Source: a virus. From it: 23,556 bases of DNA. A model generated the notes under the pieces. That model made no database searches. It was not told where the DNA came from and was given only the letters and a program-made list of their open reading frames with translations. The stretch covers positions 1 through 23,556 of IMG/VR virus record IMGVR_UViG_3300030119_000236; one strand, 5' to 3'. Each line of letters begins with the position of its first letter. Positions within the stretch are counted from its first letter, which is position 1. Made by a program: the position numbers and the translations under genes. Positions 1-14,891 of this stretch are shown here, piece after piece.

Positions 1-345
1 CTTGGGTTCTGGCATCTGTTCATAGAGTCTTACCATTGCTGGTGCCATCTTCATGGTTACAGTGCCTGCCACTATAAGTAAATCAGCCTGCCTTGGAGAT
101 GATCTTGGAACCAGACCAAACCTATCAAAGTCAAACCTTGACCCCAATAAGGCAGCAAACTCAATGAAACAGCAGGCTGTCCCATACAATAAAGGCCACA
201 ATGAAGACAACCTTGCCCAGTTGTGAAGGTCATCTAGTGACGTTAGGATAATATTTTCTGACAGGTCAGTGGTAACCTGAGGACCAACAGGACCACAGGA
301 GGCTTCCCTTAAATCACGCACTGCTCTTACTGATGGAGTGGTCAT
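1..345 (-). CDS. ndhK: NADH dehydrogenase-like (NDH-1) subunit NdhK, 5' part, cut by window edge
   Basis: The first 115 codons of an NdhK/NuoB-family protein start at 345 and run off the left edge. The family forms the connecting module of photosynthetic NDH-1 and binds the [4Fe-4S] cluster N2 that passes electrons to plastoquinone in cyclic electron flow. Seen here: a short polar N-terminus, [19 protein letters not shown] at 26-44, the cluster-ligating Cys-Cys at 58-59 in [10 protein letters not shown], then [20 protein letters not shown] at 70-89 and [20 protein letters not shown] at 96-115. These blocks match cyanobacterial NdhK as I remember it, with no frameshift. The other two cluster cysteines should lie outside the window. 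Full-length NdhK is about 240 residues, so whether this copy is intact is unknown. It lies downstream of hli and two tiny membrane-protein genes, behind a hairpin terminator. I am confident of the family; that the gene is phage-borne is inferred from the flanking genes. Confidence 0.93.
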
Positions 346-366
346 ATCTCTTTTTATCTTATGTAG

Positions 367-391
367 AAAAAAAGGGACCTTTTCAGGCCCC
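367..391 (-). terminator. Rho-independent terminator between the small membrane-protein gene and ndhK
   Basis: On the minus strand, AGGGGCCT-type sequence forms a seven-pair stem (one G-U pair) with AGGTCCC around a GAAA loop, followed by seven T. The stem overlaps the stop codon of the 47-residue gene and ends 22 nt before the ndhK start. Expression of ndhK would therefore need read-through or its own promoter, and no clear promoter is visible in the gap. Confidence 0.75.
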
Positions 392-526
392 TGCTCCCTG
401 ATAAACAGGGGTCATAACACCACCATCAGGTGGCCCATTGTCATCATCATCAGTCTCAACCATCAGTAGCATAAAAAAGAATGGTGTGAGAAAAAAAATA
501 ATAGTTTGTGACCATTCAAAACTCAT
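383..526 (-). CDS. 47-residue single-span membrane protein with acidic, Gly/Pro-rich tail
   Basis: I do not recognise a named family. The predicted protein starts MSFEWSQ, has a very hydrophobic helix of about 16 residues (positions 8-23, [15 protein letters not shown]-like) and then a DDDD run at 26-29 and a Gly/Pro-rich end with VMTPVYQG near the C-terminus. The start ATG overlaps the stop of the gene upstream as ATGA, which argues for translational coupling and a real gene. It ends inside a rho-independent terminator. Its place between hli and ndhK suggests a small thylakoid or membrane-complex subunit, for example a small NDH-1 or photosystem protein, but this is only positional inference. 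Confidence 0.6.
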
Positions 527-621
527 GACTCTTGACCTTGTGATTGTTCACTGGTAGCACGAGTGGCAGCAACTAAGGGCAAGAGGAGTAATACCGCTGC
601 CACATAAAAACCCCAAGCCAT
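523..621 (-). CDS. 32-residue single-span membrane protein, faintly PsaM-like
   Basis: A tiny gene coupled at both ends: its ATG overlaps the hli stop as TGATG, and its TGA overlaps the next start as ATGA. The protein is MAWG followed by a hydrophobic helix at about 5-19 (FYVAAVLLLLPLVAA), then TRATSEQ and a polar tail. The pattern YVAxVxxLLPxVxAxR followed by an S/T-S/T-E resembles photosystem I subunit PsaM as I remember it. At this length such similarity can arise by chance, so I name it only as a membrane protein. The overlaps on both sides are the main evidence that it is expressed. Confidence 0.55.
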   Translation of the reverse strand: MAWGFYVAAVLLLLPLVAATRATSEQSQGQES

Positions 622-776: not shown

Positions 777-1010
777 TCAGGCAAGGAAGGTTCCTGCATT
801 GCGAAGAAGACCAAAAAAGAATACATCACCAGTGGATGCATATGAAACCAGTGCTGCAACAAAACCAAGCATTGCAACCCTGCCATTTAACTTCTCAGCC
901 TTTTCATTATGGGTGACATACCCATAACGCTGTGCCTCTGTATCATAGTACATTCTGGGCTCTTTTGCCCACATGTTTGTCTGGCCAAATTCATTAGTTG
1001 TTACAGTCAT
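777..1010 (-). CDS. hli: High-light-inducible protein (Hli), 77 residues, long N-terminus
   Basis: A second Hli with a polar N-terminal extension of about 35 residues before the core EKAEKLNGRVAMLGFVAALV (36-55), which keeps the full ExxNGRxAMxGF chlorophyll-binding motif, then SYASTGDVFFFGLL. The expected location is the thylakoid membrane, next to photosystem II or chlorophyll-synthesis complexes. It has its own strong sigma70-like promoter immediately upstream (TTGACA-17-TATAGT, 1037-1065), consistent with host-polymerase transcription early in infection. The short palindrome TGATC-N8-GATCA just after the stop could form a weak hairpin. The two hli genes differ enough to be separate acquisitions or an old duplication. 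Confidence 0.95.
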   Translation of the reverse strand: MTVTTNEFGQTNMWAKEPRMYYDTEAQRYGYVTHNEKAEKLNGRVAMLGFVAALVSYASTGDVFFFGLLRNAGTFLA

Positions 1011-1036: not shown

Positions 1037-1065
1037 ACTATATATGTTTTCTTAACTTTTGTCAA
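1037..1065 (-). promoter_or_regulatory. Sigma70-type promoter for hli
   Basis: On the minus strand, TTGACA (1065-1060) is followed after exactly 17 nt by TATAGT (1042-1037), 27 nt before the hli ATG at 1010. The -35 box matches the consensus fully and the -10 at five of six positions. It lies across the 3' end of the preceding small gene, so hli can be transcribed independently of pstS. Confidence 0.7.
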
Positions 1066-1279
1066 GCTGTTCGCTTCTTAGACTGGCAACCTCCCTGATC
1101 AGATCATTGTGATCCCTGACCAGTAACATATGTTCATTCTCAAGATCCTCAACACGATATTGAAGTCTCTCTATAAGTTCATAAAGATTCCTACAACGTG
1201 CTATATTTTCCTCTCCCCTATCTGTATTGGTAAAGAACCATTTAAAAAAGTTCTTCTTTTTCTTCTTACTCTTTTTCAT
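1052..1279 (-). CDS. Small Lys-rich coiled-coil protein, unknown function
   Basis: A 75-residue product not assigned to a family. It begins MKKSKKKKKNFFKWFF, a basic amphipathic head that could touch membrane or nucleic acid, then NTDRGEENIARCRNLYEL, and continues as a heptad-like coiled coil (about 30-68, LIERLQYRVEDLENEHMLL and following). An earlier in-frame ATG at 1300 exists. I prefer 1279 because GGAGAG sits 4 nt upstream and the overlap with the pstS stop is then only 14 nt. It would be co-transcribed behind pstS. The poly-Lys stretch comes from an A-rich tract. Confidence 0.65.
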   Translation of the reverse strand: MKKSKKKKKNFFKWFFTNTDRGEENIARCRNLYELIERLQYRVEDLENEHMLLVRDHNDLIREVASLRSEQLDKS

Positions 1280-2234
1280 TAATGCTCTCCACTGCTGCAA
1301 GTGCCTTCAGTCTCACACTCTCAGGCAGGGCAACATATCCCATCCCTTCAGACATACCCTGTGCCTCTTCACTCAACATAAAGTTAAGGGCTTCCTTCAC
1401 TCCAGGTTTTGATTCAGGGTAAGCAAGGATCCAGGTCAGTGAGACAATGGGATAGGATAGTTCACCAGCAGGGTTAGGGTCTGTTCCCCTCATTTTGTCA
1501 TCTAGTTTAATATTAGCAAGACCATAAGCAGAGGATATTGGATTTGCTTTCAGGAAAACACCTGCCTTGTTCTGTAATGAAACCTGTTCCAATCTAGATG
1601 TCATCACATAATTATAGTTCAGATAACCAATAGAACCCTCCCTTTGAAGCATCTGCGCAGCAACACCAGAGTTTCCCTTTGCACCTATACCCACAGGCCA
1701 CTGAACTGTTTTTGCTGCGCCATATTTACTCTTCCATTCAGGAGAGAATGCTGACAATGAGTTGGTGAATCCATAGGTTGTCCCAGCACCATCAGCACGA
1801 TATACAACAGTGATAGGTACATTACCACAACCAAATTCTTTCCAGTTGTGTATCTTGCCCATGAAGACATCAGCAACTTGTGTCTGTGTCATCTTAACAT
1901 CACACCCTGGAACATTGAATGCTGGGACTATGGCACCCCCTGTGACAGGAATATGAATCATACCACCCTCAGGTATCTTTGAGTCCTTTACAGCAGCATC
2001 TGAGGCACCAAAGTCAACTGTCTCCCTTACAAACTGTCTGACACCTGCACCACTACCTACCGCTTGATAGTTGACCTGATTACCAGTCCTGGATGAGAAC
2101 CTAGCAAACCAAGACTGATAAAGTGGTGCTGGGAATGTTGCTCCTGCCCCTGAGATCTTGAAAACATCCTTCTTTTCTCCACAGGATGCAAGAATGGGTG
2201 CTAACAGGGCAGCAGCGAGAAATGCTTTTTTCAT
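1266..2234 (-). CDS. pstS: Phosphate ABC transporter substrate-binding lipoprotein PstS
   Basis: Periplasmic high-affinity phosphate-binding protein of the Pst transporter; phage copies are thought to keep phosphate flowing into the infected cell. From the chosen start the product is 322 residues: a signal peptide MKKAFLAAALLAPILASC with lipobox LASC (lipidated Cys18), then the PstS blocks GAGATFPAPLY (29-39), VGSGAGVRQF (59-68) and DFGASDA (74-80), and a later RADGAGTTYGFTNSLS segment, all of which line the phosphate site in the family. The length is normal. In-frame GTG/ATG starts at 2255/2252 would add a polar leader before the signal peptide and are less likely. PhoB-box-like TTAA repeats lie upstream (2242-2286). 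Confidence 0.95.
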   Translation of the reverse strand: MKKAFLAAALLAPILASCGEKKDVFKISGAGATFPAPLYQSWFARFSSRTGNQVNYQAVGSGAGVRQFVRETVDFGASDAAVKDSKIPEGGMIHIPVTGGAIVPAFNVPGCDVKMTQTQVADVFMGKIHNWKEFGCGNVPITVVYRADGAGTTYGFTNSLSAFSPEWKSKYGAAKTVQWPVGIGAKGNSGVAAQMLQREGSIGYLNYNYVMTSRLEQVSLQNKAGVFLKANPISSAYGLANIKLDDKMRGTDPNPAGELSYPIVSLTWILAYPESKPGVKEALNFMLSEEAQGMSEGMGYVALPESVRLKALAAVESINEKE

Positions 2235-2241
2235 ATTAGGT

Positions 2242-2286
2242 CTTAATGACATCACTATTTTAACATGCTTAATGGGGTTTTAACCA
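2242..2286 (-). promoter_or_regulatory. PhoB-box-like TTAA repeats upstream of pstS
   Basis: Read on the plus strand, CTTAATGA (2242), TTTAACAT (2259), CTTAATGG (2268) and TTTAACCA (2279) resemble the cyanobacterial Pho-box half-site PyTTAAPyPy(T/A). Spacings are 17, 9 and 11 nt, so the 11-nt period is only partly kept. A TAAAAT on the minus strand could act as a -10. Host PhoB control of cyanophage pstS is known from other phages. Here it is an inference from imperfect, AT-rich motifs. Confidence 0.4.
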
Positions 2287-2865: not shown

Positions 2866-3662
2866 GTTGGTGGGGGTTTCCCACCTGATGGTTCAGCAAC
2901 CCTGCCCAGATATGGGTCATAGTTCATCACCTCATCAATGGACAAACTGGCACCTGTTTGTTGCCAGTAGTTCATCTGACAATCATAGTTCCCTTTGTGA
3001 AATGCGTCAACATGCTCAGGGTGGATACTGGAACCCAGTTCAATGCGATAAAGAAGAAGAGGAACAGCATAGGAGTTGCCTGAATTATAGATAAGGTCAT
3101 CTGCTACTGGTCTTGGTTTAACTCCATTATCTAGTTTGTACTTGTCACCTCTACAGTGTAGATTGATAAGTTTCTTAGCATGGTGTCTGGTGATCAGATA
3201 ACAGGCAGTGGAGAACTCATTCACAAATCTTTTGTGAATCTTTGTGTAAATGTCACCTGTGCAAATGATGGCAATTTGAACCACATCCCAATCATAGGGC
3301 AACTTTGCCACGATGTCCTTCCATGTAAAGTTCCAACACTTTACAGTGTCAAAGGCACAATCATCCTCCATGATAATAGCATATGGAGCATCAGTCTCCT
3401 CATAGAACTTTTTGATTGCTTTGAGGTGTGATGTGGTACAACCCACCTCACCTGGCGACATCATGTCAGGGTATCTTCCTTTAAGGATGTGACCCAAATC
3501 ATCATCCCTGCCATCATATCCAGAGATTCTTTGGTAATTATCAACCTGCCAATACTTAAACTGATCCTCCATGTATTCCCATCTCTCTGGTTGTCCATCA
3601 AGATTGATACAATAGATAGGACCCATTCCTTGAAGTTTATATGCTGCCTTGTTCTTATCCAT
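2862..3662 (-). CDS. Glycosyltransferase family 25 (LPS-type)
   Basis: 266 residues. GT25 enzymes (LgtB/LpsA type) transfer galactose or glucose to lipopolysaccharide from UDP-sugars. Visible motifs: the N-terminal YCINLDGQPERW (17-28), GEVGCTTSHLKAI (71-83), and YAIIMEDDCAFD with EDD at 99-101, the metal/nucleotide-sugar site; a further ADDLIY lies near 188. It is the last gene of the sugar operon and overlaps the fucosyltransferase-like gene by 8 nt. The Pro/Gly-rich C-terminus is short and probably disordered. Its acceptor and sugar cannot be read from sequence. Confidence 0.85.
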   Translation of the reverse strand: MDKNKAAYKLQGMGPIYCINLDGQPERWEYMEDQFKYWQVDNYQRISGYDGRDDDLGHILKGRYPDMMSPGEVGCTTSHLKAIKKFYEETDAPYAIIMEDDCAFDTVKCWNFTWKDIVAKLPYDWDVVQIAIICTGDIYTKIHKRFVNEFSTACYLITRHHAKKLINLHCRGDKYKLDNGVKPRPVADDLIYNSGNSYAVPLLLYRIELGSSIHPEHVDAFHKGNYDCQMNYWQQTGASLSIDEVMNYDPYLGRVAEPSGGKPPPT

Positions 3663-6059: not shown

Positions 6060-6911
6060 CTAAGTTGGATACTTTGCTCTTGGTAAATATGCCCTATTGG
6101 GCAAATGCTTTGGATCAATACTAATATATTTCTTGTTGCCATTGAGCACAAAGTAATTATAACACAAGACAGATTCTAATTGCGTCTTGATGTCTGCTCC
6201 TTTGCACCTGTTTTCATACTCTTTTGAGGATAGATTCTCATCCTGATAAACCCTACTGAATACATCCTCCTTTCCAATCTCACACCAGGTCTTCATTGCC
6301 AATGGATCACCAAAGACAACAATATCACTCAGGATCTTATTGAATACACCATTGTCAAGGGTAACAGAGAAGTCATAATCCATACCAAATAGTGTATTGT
6401 CCTCAATAAACTTCTCATAGTAGTTTAGATCCAACTGTGATACCCAGGCATCATATCTTGATTTGATAATCAGATCATATGTCTCTGGATTCTCAATCAG
6501 TTTGTATGATTTATAAATGTTTCTGACCTGTCCATAGTAGCTCCTAAGGGTGGATTGTTCATTTTCAGCGCATCCCATCTTGGCAGATTTACTTTTCACA
6601 AATCCAGGTGATGATCTAATCAGATGACAATACTTACTGGCAAAGTTACTAATCTCCTCATCAACAGTCTCATAATTTTCAATGTTAATACTCTTATAGT
6701 CAAGGTATCTCTCAAAGAACAACCAATCAATCCTTGGTGAGTTTACGTATCCTTTTTTATCAGCAGGTTCCTTATGTGGTGCCCCTAAAACATCATATGT
6801 ATTTGAATAGAGGTCAATCTCATGACATAAATTTAATTTTTTAAATTTAAAAATCTCCTCTAAATATTTTGCATCCCTCACAAAACCAGGGAGAAGATAA
6901 GCTACCCTCAT
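6060..6911 (-). CDS. Unknown protein of the sugar operon, possibly a glycosyltransferase
   Basis: 283 residues. I do not recognise a firm family. It starts MRVAYLLPGFVRDAKYL, a Rossmann-like strand followed by HEIDLYSNTYDVLG, and contains SYYGQVRNIYKSYKLI followed by YDLIIKSRYDAWV. This R-Y-D after two hydrophobic strands is a pattern seen in uncharacterised carbohydrate-biosynthesis proteins of the GT-A kind. Later come DIVVFGDPLAMKTWCEIG and QLESVLCYNYF. There is no signal peptide or membrane helix. It overlaps deoD by 4 nt (ATGA). Glycosyl transfer is inferred from position and weak pattern only. Confidence 0.5.
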   Translation of the reverse strand: MRVAYLLPGFVRDAKYLEEIFKFKKLNLCHEIDLYSNTYDVLGAPHKEPADKKGYVNSPRIDWLFFERYLDYKSINIENYETVDEEISNFASKYCHLIRSSPGFVKSKSAKMGCAENEQSTLRSYYGQVRNIYKSYKLIENPETYDLIIKSRYDAWVSQLDLNYYEKFIEDNTLFGMDYDFSVTLDNGVFNKILSDIVVFGDPLAMKTWCEIGKEDVFSRVYQDENLSSKEYENRCKGADIKTQLESVLCYNYFVLNGNKKYISIDPKHLPNRAYLPRAKYPT

Positions 6912-7600
6912 AGAATGCTCCTCAATACATTCTCAATCATTATACCTAAACCCTGTTCCCTTTCTACACTTGACATACACATATCCTTTTCAAGATGATC
7001 AGACACTGTATTTACTGACAATGCTTTCTTGTTAAATCTGTTAGCAATACTATAAAGAACATGGGTCTCCATATCTACTGCCAGGATACCAATATCCCTT
7101 AATGGTTTATACCAATCAAGATTGGGTTGATAAAAGTAATCATTGGATACCATCTGACCAACATAGGCAAGAGGATCTACACTCATATATTTTTCCAACA
7201 TATAATAATCACAACAGGGTGATAATCTAAAACCAGGAGCAAGGTTATCTGTCATGGAATTGTCAGTGGCAGAACTCATAGCCACCACGATATCACCAAC
7301 AACAACATGGGGTGAAATACCACCACAACTCCCTACTCTGATGATCTTTTTGACATTATACTCTTTGAATAGTTCATGAGCATATATTCCAAGACTTGCC
7401 TGACCCATTCCACTTGCCTGAACTGATACAGGTTTGCCCATGTATGTTCCACTAAACCCCATACAATTTCGTATGGTGTTTACAGTTTTAACATTATCTA
7501 AAAACTTACCAGCAATCCACACTGCTCTCAGTGGATCACCAGGCATGAGAACTATGGGATTGTACTCTCCCTTCTTTGCTTCAATGTGAGGTGTTGGCAT
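6908..7600 (-). CDS. deoD: Purine nucleoside phosphorylase, DeoD type
   Basis: 230 residues, close to the 239 of E. coli DeoD, and alignable by eye from the first residues (MPTPHI, MPGDPLRA at 19-26). Key residues seem kept: H5 and R44 of the neighbour-subunit site, R25, R88 and S91 (IRVGSCGG) for phosphate, M177 and E178 (VDMETH) for ribose, and D201 in VSDH, the proton donor to the base. The family catalyses reversible phosphorolysis of purine (deoxy)nucleosides to base and (deoxy)ribose-1-phosphate, in the cytoplasm as a hexamer. The gene overlaps the HAD hydrolase gene by 20 nt and sits inside a glycan operon, an unexpected place. Small changes near the ribose site leave substrate preference open. 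Confidence 0.88.
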   Translation of the reverse strand: MPTPHIEAKKGEYNPIVLMPGDPLRAVWIAGKFLDNVKTVNTIRNCMGFSGTYMGKPVSVQASGMGQASLGIYAHELFKEYNVKKIIRVGSCGGISPHVVVGDIVVAMSSATDNSMTDNLAPGFRLSPCCDYYMLEKYMSVDPLAYVGQMVSNDYFYQPNLDWYKPLRDIGILAVDMETHVLYSIANRFNKKALSVNTVSDHLEKDMCMSSVEREQGLGIMIENVLRSIL

Positions 7601-12804: not shown

Positions 12805-12833
12805 ATTATATCAAGCAGAGTATTTTTTGACAA
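12805..12833 (-). promoter_or_regulatory. Sigma70-type promoter heading the sugar operon
   Basis: TTGTCA (12833-12828), 17 nt, TATAAT (12810-12805) on the minus strand, 24 nt upstream of the epimerase ATG. The -10 is a perfect consensus and the -35 matches five of six. It overlaps the end of the preceding gene. No comparable site is evident in the next 9.9 kb, where genes overlap or nearly touch. Confidence 0.72.
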
Positions 12834-13038
12834 GTGCATCAAAATTGGGTTCCATTGCCCTTACAATCTTCCTAAGCAGTGCATCCTCACCACCCTCTGC
12901 TGGTGCTGCTGCGTGCTGATGATTCTTGAGTTCTGCTACTACTTTCTCCAATGCTTGGAGTCTTGCTTCCACCTCAACATCATACTTGGACATTGCTGCC
13001 CCAGTTGCAGATCTAGCTGCTGATCCTCTTGCTGGCAT
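12811..13038 (-). CDS. Small Ala-rich coiled-coil protein, unknown
   Basis: 75 residues. N-terminal Ala/Ser/Arg-rich segment MPARGSAARSATGAA, a predicted coiled coil KYDVEVEARLQALEKVVAEL (18-37), an Ala/Pro/Gly linker and a C-terminal helix LRKIVRAMEPNFDALVKKYS. It looks like a small oligomeric protein; I recognise no domain. It stands alone between a terminator (13073-13098) and the operon promoter, with a late-like TCTAAATA 22 nt before its start. An internal ATG at codon 16 (MSKYDVEVE) is an alternative start that would drop the disordered head. A virion role is possible but not shown. Confidence 0.65.
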   Translation of the reverse strand: MPARGSAARSATGAAMSKYDVEVEARLQALEKVVAELKNHQHAAAPAEGGEDALLRKIVRAMEPNFDALVKKYSA

Positions 13039-13072: not shown

Positions 13073-13098
13073 AAAAAAAGGCAGGGGTCACCTGCCTT
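13073..13098 (-). terminator. Rho-independent terminator of the 13785-13097 gene group
   Basis: On the minus strand AAGGCAGG pairs with CCTGCCTT (eight pairs, 13098-13091 with 13085-13078) around a five-base loop, followed by a T-tract. It overlaps the stop codon of the 80-residue gene, as is common in this window. Confidence 0.85.
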
Positions 13099-13339
13099 AT
13101 TGATCAGTGGTATTGAGGTTCATTCTTGACTTAATTAAATCAATCCTTGCCCTCAAGTATTCTTCAGACTCCCTTTGATAAATGCCATAAGCAATATTCA
13201 TGAGAGTCTGAACTGTCCTCCATCCACCATATTTTTTTTGTGATCTTACCTTCATGTATTGATTATGAAGTAAGAGTTTAGCATCAGATACTGTCATCCA
13301 CTCATGAATAAGAGTAAGATTGATGGCATCTTCTTCCAT
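13097..13339 (-). CDS. Hypothetical phage protein, 80 residues
   Basis: Not recognised. Mostly helical, with acidic start MEEDAINLTLIHEWM and amphipathic stretch VQTLMNIAYGIYQRESEEYL; basic KVRSQKKYGGWRT in the middle. No membrane segment, signal peptide or Cys pair. Its start follows the upstream stop directly at 13340, and its stop lies in the terminator hairpin. It is the third and last gene of a compact trio (13785-13097). Confidence 0.65.
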   Translation of the reverse strand: MEEDAINLTLIHEWMTVSDAKLLLHNQYMKVRSQKKYGGWRTVQTLMNIAYGIYQRESEEYLRARIDLIKSRMNLNTTDQ

Positions 13340-13579
13340 TTACCTGGCAGATACTTTGTCCTTTATATAGCAAGGAACACCATCAGGATCTAACCACTTG
13401 GTGTATTCAAAATCCTCCATGGCAAGAAGAAACTGCATTTGATTATCACAAAGATACATGTCTTTGTATTTACCAGTCCAGGAATCTACTTTCTGAATTC
13501 TGTAATCAGGCATGCCATTGAGTTCAATGATGCCCTTCTCCACATAACGATATGGGAATTGTTCAAGAATAACTTTCAT
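13340..13579 (-). CDS. Hypothetical phage protein, 79 residues
   Basis: Not recognised. Mixed alpha/beta: FPYRYVEKGIIELNG, then IQKVDSWTGKYKDMYLCDNQ and FLLAMEDFEYTKWLDPDG, ending in a short basic segment YIKDKVSAR. The start overlaps the preceding stop as ATGA and its end abuts the next start with no gap. The regular overlaps are the main evidence that it is real. Confidence 0.65.
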   Translation of the reverse strand: MKVILEQFPYRYVEKGIIELNGMPDYRIQKVDSWTGKYKDMYLCDNQMQFLLAMEDFEYTKWLDPDGVPCYIKDKVSAR

Positions 13580-14009: not shown

Positions 14010-14183
14010 TCAGGATGCCTCGTTGTTCTGTTCTTTGTAGAGAATATCCATTTCTATATCCATGGGAGTTAACACTGCCTTTGCTCCTTTTTTATTCACT
14101 ATACCTATGGTCTCCCCCTTCTCAACCCTTTCAATGAGTTGCTCCCAGTTCTTCTGCCAATGTTCCACAGAATAAAATTTCAT
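14010..14183 (-). CDS. Phd/YefM-family antitoxin-like protein
   Basis: 57 residues. N-terminal MKFYSVEHWQKNWEQLIERV, then EKGETIGIVNKKGAKAVLTP and MDIEMDIL. This has the Phd/YefM order: a start strand, a helix ending L(I/L)xRVExGE, a short strand with a positively charged turn, and xAVLxPMxxxE. The family dimerises, binds DNA at its own operator and neutralises toxins such as Doc or YoeB. Length fits the DNA-binding core without a long toxin-binding tail. No toxin gene is adjacent: purC is upstream, and downstream the stop codon touches tRNA-Ile. It may be an orphan that targets a host toxin or serves as a regulator. Confidence 0.6.
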   Translation of the reverse strand: MKFYSVEHWQKNWEQLIERVEKGETIGIVNKKGAKAVLTPMDIEMDILYKEQNNEAS

Positions 14184-14201: not shown

Positions 14202-14891
14202 TTAAATGAATGTTTGTAATTTGTGCAAAATTACTTTGTATGGCTCTATTATATCACCCTCATCCAATCTAAACAAATCCTTATCATATCTCTCCATGTT
14301 ACTCTTGCCCCACAATCTCATTGAGTCAGGTGATATCTCATCAGCAAGTAGAAGTTCACCATGAGCATCAATGCCAAACTCAATCTTGAAGTCAATAACA
14401 TCAAAACCAATTATGTTGAACATATTAATGAGATAATCATTGATCAGCTTTGCTTGTTCAACAATGGGAACATAGTCATATCCCATCAACTTAACCCTAT
14501 CCCTAGTGAGTAAGGGGTCATGCTTGTTATCATCTTTAAGAAAGAATTCTACAATAGCAGGTAGGATTGGTTGTCCCTCCTTAAGGGTTGTAGATTTTAA
14601 GATAGACCCTGCTGCCCTGTTTCTTACAATAACCTCCAATGGAATTATGTTCACCTTTTTACATAACATCCTGTTAGGACCAACCTGTGTGATATAGTGA
14701 TTTCTGATACCAAGATCTGCTAACTTTTCAAAGATAATGGATGAGATTTGACAACAGAGGGAACCCTTACCAGCAGGATAATCCTCCTTCTCACCATTTC
14801 CAGCAGTAACTTTATCATGGAAATGAATCAATACCTCCTCTGCATTATCAGTATTGAATACTGTTTTGACCTTACCCTCAACAACAAGCAT
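14202..14891 (-). CDS. purC: SAICAR synthetase (phosphoribosylaminoimidazole-succinocarboxamide synthase)
   Basis: 229 residues, near the 237 of E. coli PurC. It joins CAIR with aspartate using ATP in de novo purine synthesis, in the cytoplasm. Motifs: GKVKTVFNTDN (6-16), the ATP site; PLEVIVRNRAAGSI (84-97) with the family's VRNxxAGS; and LLLADEISPDSMRLW (180-194), the substrate/metal segment. There is no frameshift. The start forms a TAATG junction with the zinc-binding-like gene upstream. Phage pur genes are thought to help meet the DNA demand of replication; no other pur gene lies in the window. Confidence 0.95.
   Translation of the reverse strand: MLVVEGKVKTVFNTDNAEEVLIHFHDKVTAGNGEKEDYPAGKGSLCCQISSIIFEKLADLGIRNHYITQVGPNRMLCKKVNIIPLEVIVRNRAAGSILKSTTLKEGQPILPAIVEFFLKDDNKHDPLLTRDRVKLMGYDYVPIVEQAKLINDYLINMFNIIGFDVIDFKIEFGIDAHGELLLADEISPDSMRLWGKSNMERYDKDLFRLDEGDIIEPYKVILHKLQTFI

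Follow-up and report, generated by a model that had tools for sequence, protein, structure and literature searches.

Single genes for subunits of NDH-1 are already known from phages. They include ndhI, which is present in P-TIM40, P-TIM68 and a set of IMG/VR contigs, and ndhD and ndhP, whose products are subunits of the membrane arm. The latter two have also been reported from phage-like metagenome scaffolds, as cited in two papers (PMC10452541, PMC3877843). The route of electrons within the complex, as set out in two further papers (PMC7021789, PMC6992706), leads from ferredoxin through clusters N6a and N6b, both held by NdhI, to cluster N2, which NdhK holds beside the plastoquinone site, and from there to plastoquinone, in a cavity formed by NdhK, NdhH and NdhA. 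A review reports stronger cyclic flow during infection by P-TIM68 (PMC6359870), and the database record of this phage notes its NdhI as 'confirmed using proteomics'.

The DNA analysed here, referred to as the window, comes to 23,556 bases and is a linear record of viral sequence (IMGVR_UViG_3300030119_000236). Judged by its sequence, it ends inside a genuine phage auxiliary metabolic cassette, ndhK-ndhI, the whole of which is visible in a second contig, L002. As regards P-TIM40, P-TIM68 and the IMG/VR ndhI contigs, the NdhI encoded in L002 is grouped with theirs by the branch that separates virus from host rows and would be expected to have the same role in NDH-1 cyclic flow. In those loci, however, ndhI is found without ndhK, whereas in L002 the two genes overlap. 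The position also differs, ndhI being in a photosystem-gene region in P-TIM68 and the viral locus L084, in a purC/nrd region in the viral locus L083 and in a pstS/hli/gnd island in L002. The ndhD and ndhP genes are likewise NDH-1 subunit genes on phage-like scaffolds but, unlike ndhK, specify membrane-arm rather than N2-bearing proteins.

The ndhK-ndhI cassette and its surroundings

DNA matches to the window were found in 191 phage records, the 15 best listed having 73-77% identity and nearly all of these covering the nrdA, nrdB and primase region; they come from Synechococcus or Prochlorococcus phages or, in one case, a marine single-cell virus. With nrdA, nrdB and primase genes similar to those of cyanophage records and a pstS-hli region, the window belongs with the T4-like cyanomyoviruses (Kyanoviridae), in agreement with the preliminary description of this DNA, which had spoken of ndhK in a T4-like genome with nrd and primase genes. 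Using the 115-residue NdhK fragment as a query, L002 (IMGVR_UViG_3300020430_001757, 9,335 bases) was found in IMG/VR. The two contigs overlap by 2,510 bases with 22 mismatches (window position = 2511 - L002 position), the 345 bases of ndhK common to both are identical and the hli-ndhK junction is present in each of these assemblies, which differ elsewhere; both ndhK carriers are metagenomic and they are possibly not independent. Twenty of the 22 differences are inside an 84-base patch of pstS (window 2018-2101, L002:410-493), a pattern that would fit the exchange of a short segment between strains.

The 5' part of ndhK, 115 codons from the ATG, occupies window 1..345 on the minus strand, the reading frame being open at the left edge where it runs off the contig. 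The encoded fragment matches the NAD(P)H-quinone oxidoreductase subunit K of PDB entry 6hum_K (E=1.3e-50) and exceeds the cut-offs of NCBIfam NF005012 (138.3 bits, cut-off 116) and Pfam PF01058 (30.5, cut-off 27), while it falls short of those of the remaining NuoB models (TIGR01957, for instance, at 120.2 with a cut-off of 142.7), as expected of a half-length piece. These matches bear out the preliminary description, which had read the 115 codons as cyanobacterial NdhK with its Cys-Cys pair and had proposed to look in an extension to the left for the remaining cluster cysteines and a length of about 240 residues. In L002 the full gene (L002:2166-2879) encodes 237 amino acids and is above the cut-offs of TIGR01957 (220.2 against 142.7), NF005012 (246.6 against 116) and PF01058 (106.9 against 27), though below the higher cut-offs of lineage-specific NuoB equivalogs. 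Its cysteines are C17, the pair C58-C59, C123 and C154, the last four of which are invariant in a 14-row NdhK alignment; we take these four to be the ligands of cluster N2. An AlphaFold model computed with this alignment as input had a pLDDT of 33.7.

Downstream, and sharing 56 bases with ndhK, ndhI starts at an ATG at position 2824 (L002:2824-3393) and encodes 189 amino acids; gene and overlap are outside the window and so were invisible to the preliminary description. NdhI is above the cut-off of the equivalog model TIGR00403 (311.1 against 302.35) and, among nine cysteines in total, has two CxxCxxCxxxC motifs formed by Cys 63, 66, 69 and 73 and by Cys 103, 106, 109 and 113. It matches phrog_29963 (E=3.2e-107), a family that carries the label 'unknown function'. 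On these predictions, phage NdhK and NdhI are intact and retain the expected Fe-S cysteines.

The limits of the cassette are given by two related loci with empty sites, L174 and L175, in which the order is pstS, o82, hli1, hli2, o32, o47, o143, o79, gnd without ndhK or ndhI; comparison with these defines an insertion of 1,263 bases (L002:2148-3410), bounded by a terminator on one side and by the phage gene o143 on the other. The part inside the window is 1..363 (minus strand), with the inner edge at 363/364. Just upstream of the cassette is an intrinsic terminator-like hairpin followed by a T-run (window 373..392, minus strand; L002:2119-2138), found by folding. A 71-base stretch with this hairpin has a predicted energy of -24.1 kcal/mol (z -3.3), and the hairpin also folds in the empty-site locus L174. 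The insertion sits right after the T-run, between TCTA at L002:2144-2147 and TCTA at 3407-3410, and base-level comparison reveals an imperfect 8-base direct repeat, with the left copy TCTACATA at window 360..367 (minus strand) and the right copy TCTAAATA at the far edge of the cassette (L002:3407-3414). A late-promoter motif was also considered at the cassette edge, but TATAAATA with at most one mismatch was found 42 times against 37.2 expected and CTAAATA four times against 3.9 expected; as these counts are close to expectation, nothing is claimed beyond the imperfect repeat. A promoter-consensus search gave no convincing promoter for ndhK itself after the hairpin. With a hairpin before the gene and no clear promoter, expression would need either read-through or an unrecognised phage promoter. 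Among the viral loci fetched with o143, of which the best 80 of 499 confirmed were kept, neither ndhK (0/80) nor ndhI (0/80) was found.

The genes on either side are those of a phage. Moving away from the cassette within the window, all on the minus strand, are a 47-residue phage reading frame, o47 (phrog_17393, 383..526), a 32-residue reading frame, o32, hydrophobic by eye (526..621), hli2, for a short high-light-inducible-type protein of 35 residues in L002 (624..728), hli1, for a high-light-inducible protein (phrog_178, 777..1010), the 82-residue reading frame o82, pstS, for a phosphate-binding protein (phrog_5385, 1266..2255), and a cyanophage outer-membrane-like beta barrel (PF24653, 2358..2723). 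The neighbouring hli genes that the preliminary description had pointed to are thus present, with hli2, hli1 and pstS on the same strand as ndhK. Both o47 and o32 are between hli2 and the cassette, and many of the cyanophage loci in the comparison likewise have o47 next to hli2. A sigma-70-like promoter match, TTGACA-17-TATAGT (11/12), is present upstream of hli1 (window 1037..1065, minus strand; L002:1446-1474), in a stretch with 18 such consensus matches against 11.0 expected. Past ndhI, L002 continues with o143 (a 143-residue reading frame, phrog_2714), a 79-residue reading frame, gnd, a 158-residue reading frame, an endonuclease and plastocyanin, the last called by phrog_515 with TIGR02656 just below its cut-off (79.6 against 87.85). 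The extension to the left therefore enters cyanophage genes after ndhI and not the host ndhC-ndhK-ndhJ region, an outcome against which the preliminary description had guarded. A host-type ndhK with phage genes on both sides is an auxiliary metabolic gene, and the cassette is within a pstS/hli/gnd/petE metabolic island. The Synechococcus phages Bellamy and RB11-B have a related pstS-hli-o47 order, and Bellamy, S-SM2 and S-SCSM1 also carry gnd.

Further into the window, between 2862 and 12781, glycosyltransferases, methyltransferases, a sugar epimerase and a nucleotidyltransferase were recognised by eye, as were a purine-nucleoside-phosphorylase-like gene (6908-7600) and a purC-like gene (14202-14891). 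Four tRNA genes are present between 13861 and 15967, for Met, Ile (TAT), Val and Arg (TCT), and beside them a 57-residue reading frame (14010-14183), Phd/YefM-type antitoxin-like by eye, has a counterpart at L083:5033-5206.

Relation to host and viral homologues

Phage NdhK was compared with the best 80 of 559 confirmed host sequences. It is orthologous to the product of the host ndhC-ndhK-ndhJ operon, with amino acid identities of 79-91%, nucleotide identities of 65-72% and dN of 0.12-0.21 over all 80 pairs. Of 157 sites that are at least 97% constant among the hosts, 156 are kept, the exception being L104M. The NG86 estimate of dS was undefined through saturation in all 80 comparisons, and identity at fourfold sites was 20-45%. 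As the two phage copies are identical over their common 345 bases, the comparison of selection was made pairwise against hosts only; the combination of conserved constant sites and saturated synonymous change points to long-term purifying selection rather than fresh capture. When 400 genomes from the nearest host family were searched at the DNA level, 359 gave a match; the highest-scoring one has 77% identity over about 520 bases, and among the matches listed identity does not exceed 79%. The GC content of ndhK, 0.428, is like that of its flanks, 0.424 and 0.400.

The arrangement also separates phage from host. Host ndhK lies between ndhC and ndhJ (by eye in the host loci L003 and L004), whereas phage ndhK lies between the terminator and ndhI, and ndhI was found in 0/80 of the flanks fetched with host ndhK, 63 of these loci having full or near-full 3-kb flanks (at least 6.6 kb). 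A fragment of a host ndhC-ndhK-ndhJ region was considered and ruled out, as ndhI comes after ndhK in L002; with the adjoining ndhI, the limit of 79% in the host matches listed, and 156/157 constant sites kept under synonymous saturation, phage ndhK is not a piece of host DNA.

Two trees were built against host NdhK, as the preliminary description had called for. In a quick tree with 81 rows, the phage protein and Synechococcus CPC35 form a pair (support 95), and a more careful tree of 36 chosen rows recovers this pairing at 83/92 with a bootstrap that had not settled; grouping with six Prochlorococcus rows of the other large clade was not rejected (p-AU 0.345). In these trees phage NdhK sits on a long branch and is related to the NdhK of marine Synechococcus/Prochlorococcus.

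For ndhI, the best 80 of 182 stretches in a scan of viral DNA were kept. A quick tree of 106 rows splits 82 viral from 24 host rows by one branch (support 80), and in it NdhI of L002 groups with L083, L084 and L085 in a four-row virus set (support 98). L083, a close relative, is part of the same 115-kb contig as L175, so that the hli site is empty in a virus that has ndhI elsewhere. There ndhI (L083:5998-6561) is found without ndhK between homologues of window 13340-13579 and 12811-13038, a slot that in the window holds an 80-residue reading frame (13097..13339, minus strand); ndhI was not found in the window. In L084 ndhI is between psbA and psbD homologues (by eye). The best reading of these relationships is that a phage lineage that already had ndhI gained ndhK, and the simplest account would be that ndhI moved and was joined to the acquired ndhK.

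Occurrence of ndhK among phages

Phage ndhK appears to be rare. Scans of IMG/VR with the N-terminal half, a profile and the C-terminal half of NdhK confirmed one of 10, one of 15 and one of 14 pattern-matched stretches, respectively, each time L002, and two junction patterns both returned L002 as well. Among the best 80 of 182 ndhI loci, ndhK was absent from 79 and present in that of L002 only, so the pair is not generally needed. A protein search for NdhK, run with no positive control, was negative in all 50 whole records covered, out of 79 other than L002. With PF01058, two of 51 records, the window and L002, were above the cut-off, against 11 of 14 control genomes, and two others at 12.8 and 12.2 bits were below it and were not counted. 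In the same 51 records, many of them fragments, neither PF00346 (ndhH-type; controls 11/14) nor PF00361 (ndhB/D/F-type; controls 13/14) was detected; record G011 was left out of all three scans. Distant relatives escape pattern scans of this kind, many of the records are fragmentary, and records near the window were possibly left out. Besides the window, L002 was the one source of ndhK among the IMG/VR contigs and cyanophage records searched.

In a collection of 50,697 phage records NdhK matched eight and NdhI 20, and Bellamy, RB11-B, S-SM2 and S-SCSM1 are not among either set. The eight NdhK matches were set aside, since none is named as a cyanophage and seven have less than 60% identity; two are annotated as nuoB, one as NADH ubiquinone oxidoreductase and five not at all. 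At a threshold of E = 0.001, NdhK has no match among the PHROG families. In the literature, the only mention of ndhK with a cyanophage was a table for infection by YongM, in which NdhK, apparently that of the host, is listed as down (PMC8875764), and there was none with an auxiliary metabolic gene; some primary papers from 2011 and 2017 were not covered and an earlier mention is possible. The ndhK-ndhI pair looks new.

Possible role in infection

Since the clusters of the path are in NdhI and NdhK, the pair encodes the holders of every Fe-S cluster between ferredoxin and plastoquinone within NDH-1. The cassette itself, carried by a T4-like cyanophage, is evident from the DNA; that it supplies matched Fe-S subunits to the host NDH-1, sustaining cyclic flow, seems to us probable. 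NdhK and NdhI would be made during infection, with the overlap of their genes favouring balanced synthesis, and would enter newly assembled host NDH-1 as a matched pair, replacing or supplementing the host copies, with the remaining subunits supplied by the host. In that case every step of the Fe-S wire between reduced ferredoxin and plastoquinone would be of viral origin, and cyclic flow around photosystem I that depends on ferredoxin, together with ATP, would be kept up or raised as host gene expression declines. More tentatively, a wholly viral N6a/N6b/N2 wire from a co-translated pair might give a hybrid NDH-1 with a rate or regulation unlike that of the host complex.

The preliminary description had expected a phage NdhK to act on cyclic electron flow or respiration, and an effect on one or the other would follow from its place in the path. 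A main role of the pair in respiration, dark metabolism or CO2 uptake by NDH-1MS, in preference to cyclic flow around photosystem I, is rather unlikely. In its favour, gnd, which feeds NADPH, and plastocyanin are in the same island, and NdhK and NdhI are in the NDH-1M module, which is common to all four forms of NDH-1 (PMC7021789), so that the sequence cannot tell which form the phage subunits join. However, NDH-1 receives its electrons from ferredoxin via NdhI (PMC6992706, PMC7021789), and related ndhI genes are beside photosystem I and II genes in P-TIM68 and between the psbA and psbD homologues of L084.

It is very unlikely that the cassette travels along as a passenger or acts as a dominant-negative decoy, with phage NdhK and NdhI competing against the host's own subunits so that the complex is blocked or redirected. 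In favour of this, just two of NDH-1's many subunits were detected, with PF00346 and PF00361 in none of the 51 records scanned, many of which are fragments, and the hairpin precedes the cassette, but the conserved host-constant sites, the expected cluster ligands and the saturated synonymous change point to selection for working subunits. An assembly chimera or host contamination, with a host ndhK fragment joined to a phage contig, is highly improbable: ndhK is at the contig end in the window and in just one other contig, the terminator at the junction is common to related phages and marks a point at which short-read assemblies can break or be joined, and L173, a contig of the metagenome that also gave L002, starts with an empty junction, but the divergence from all host matches listed, the overlap with an ndhI that falls with viral ndhI, the lack of ndhI in the fetched flanks of host ndhK, the flank-like GC content and the phage synteny on both sides all argue against it.

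Supply of a matched pair to the host NDH-1 thus has the better claim. That one phage carries both cluster-bearing subunits, arranged as in none of the host loci inspected, suggests the Fe-S module as the part under pressure in infection, whether through turnover or through matching of the pair. The pair also bears on why carrying a single NDH-1 subunit would help a phage, and it provides a compact two-gene system for testing effects on cyclic flow.
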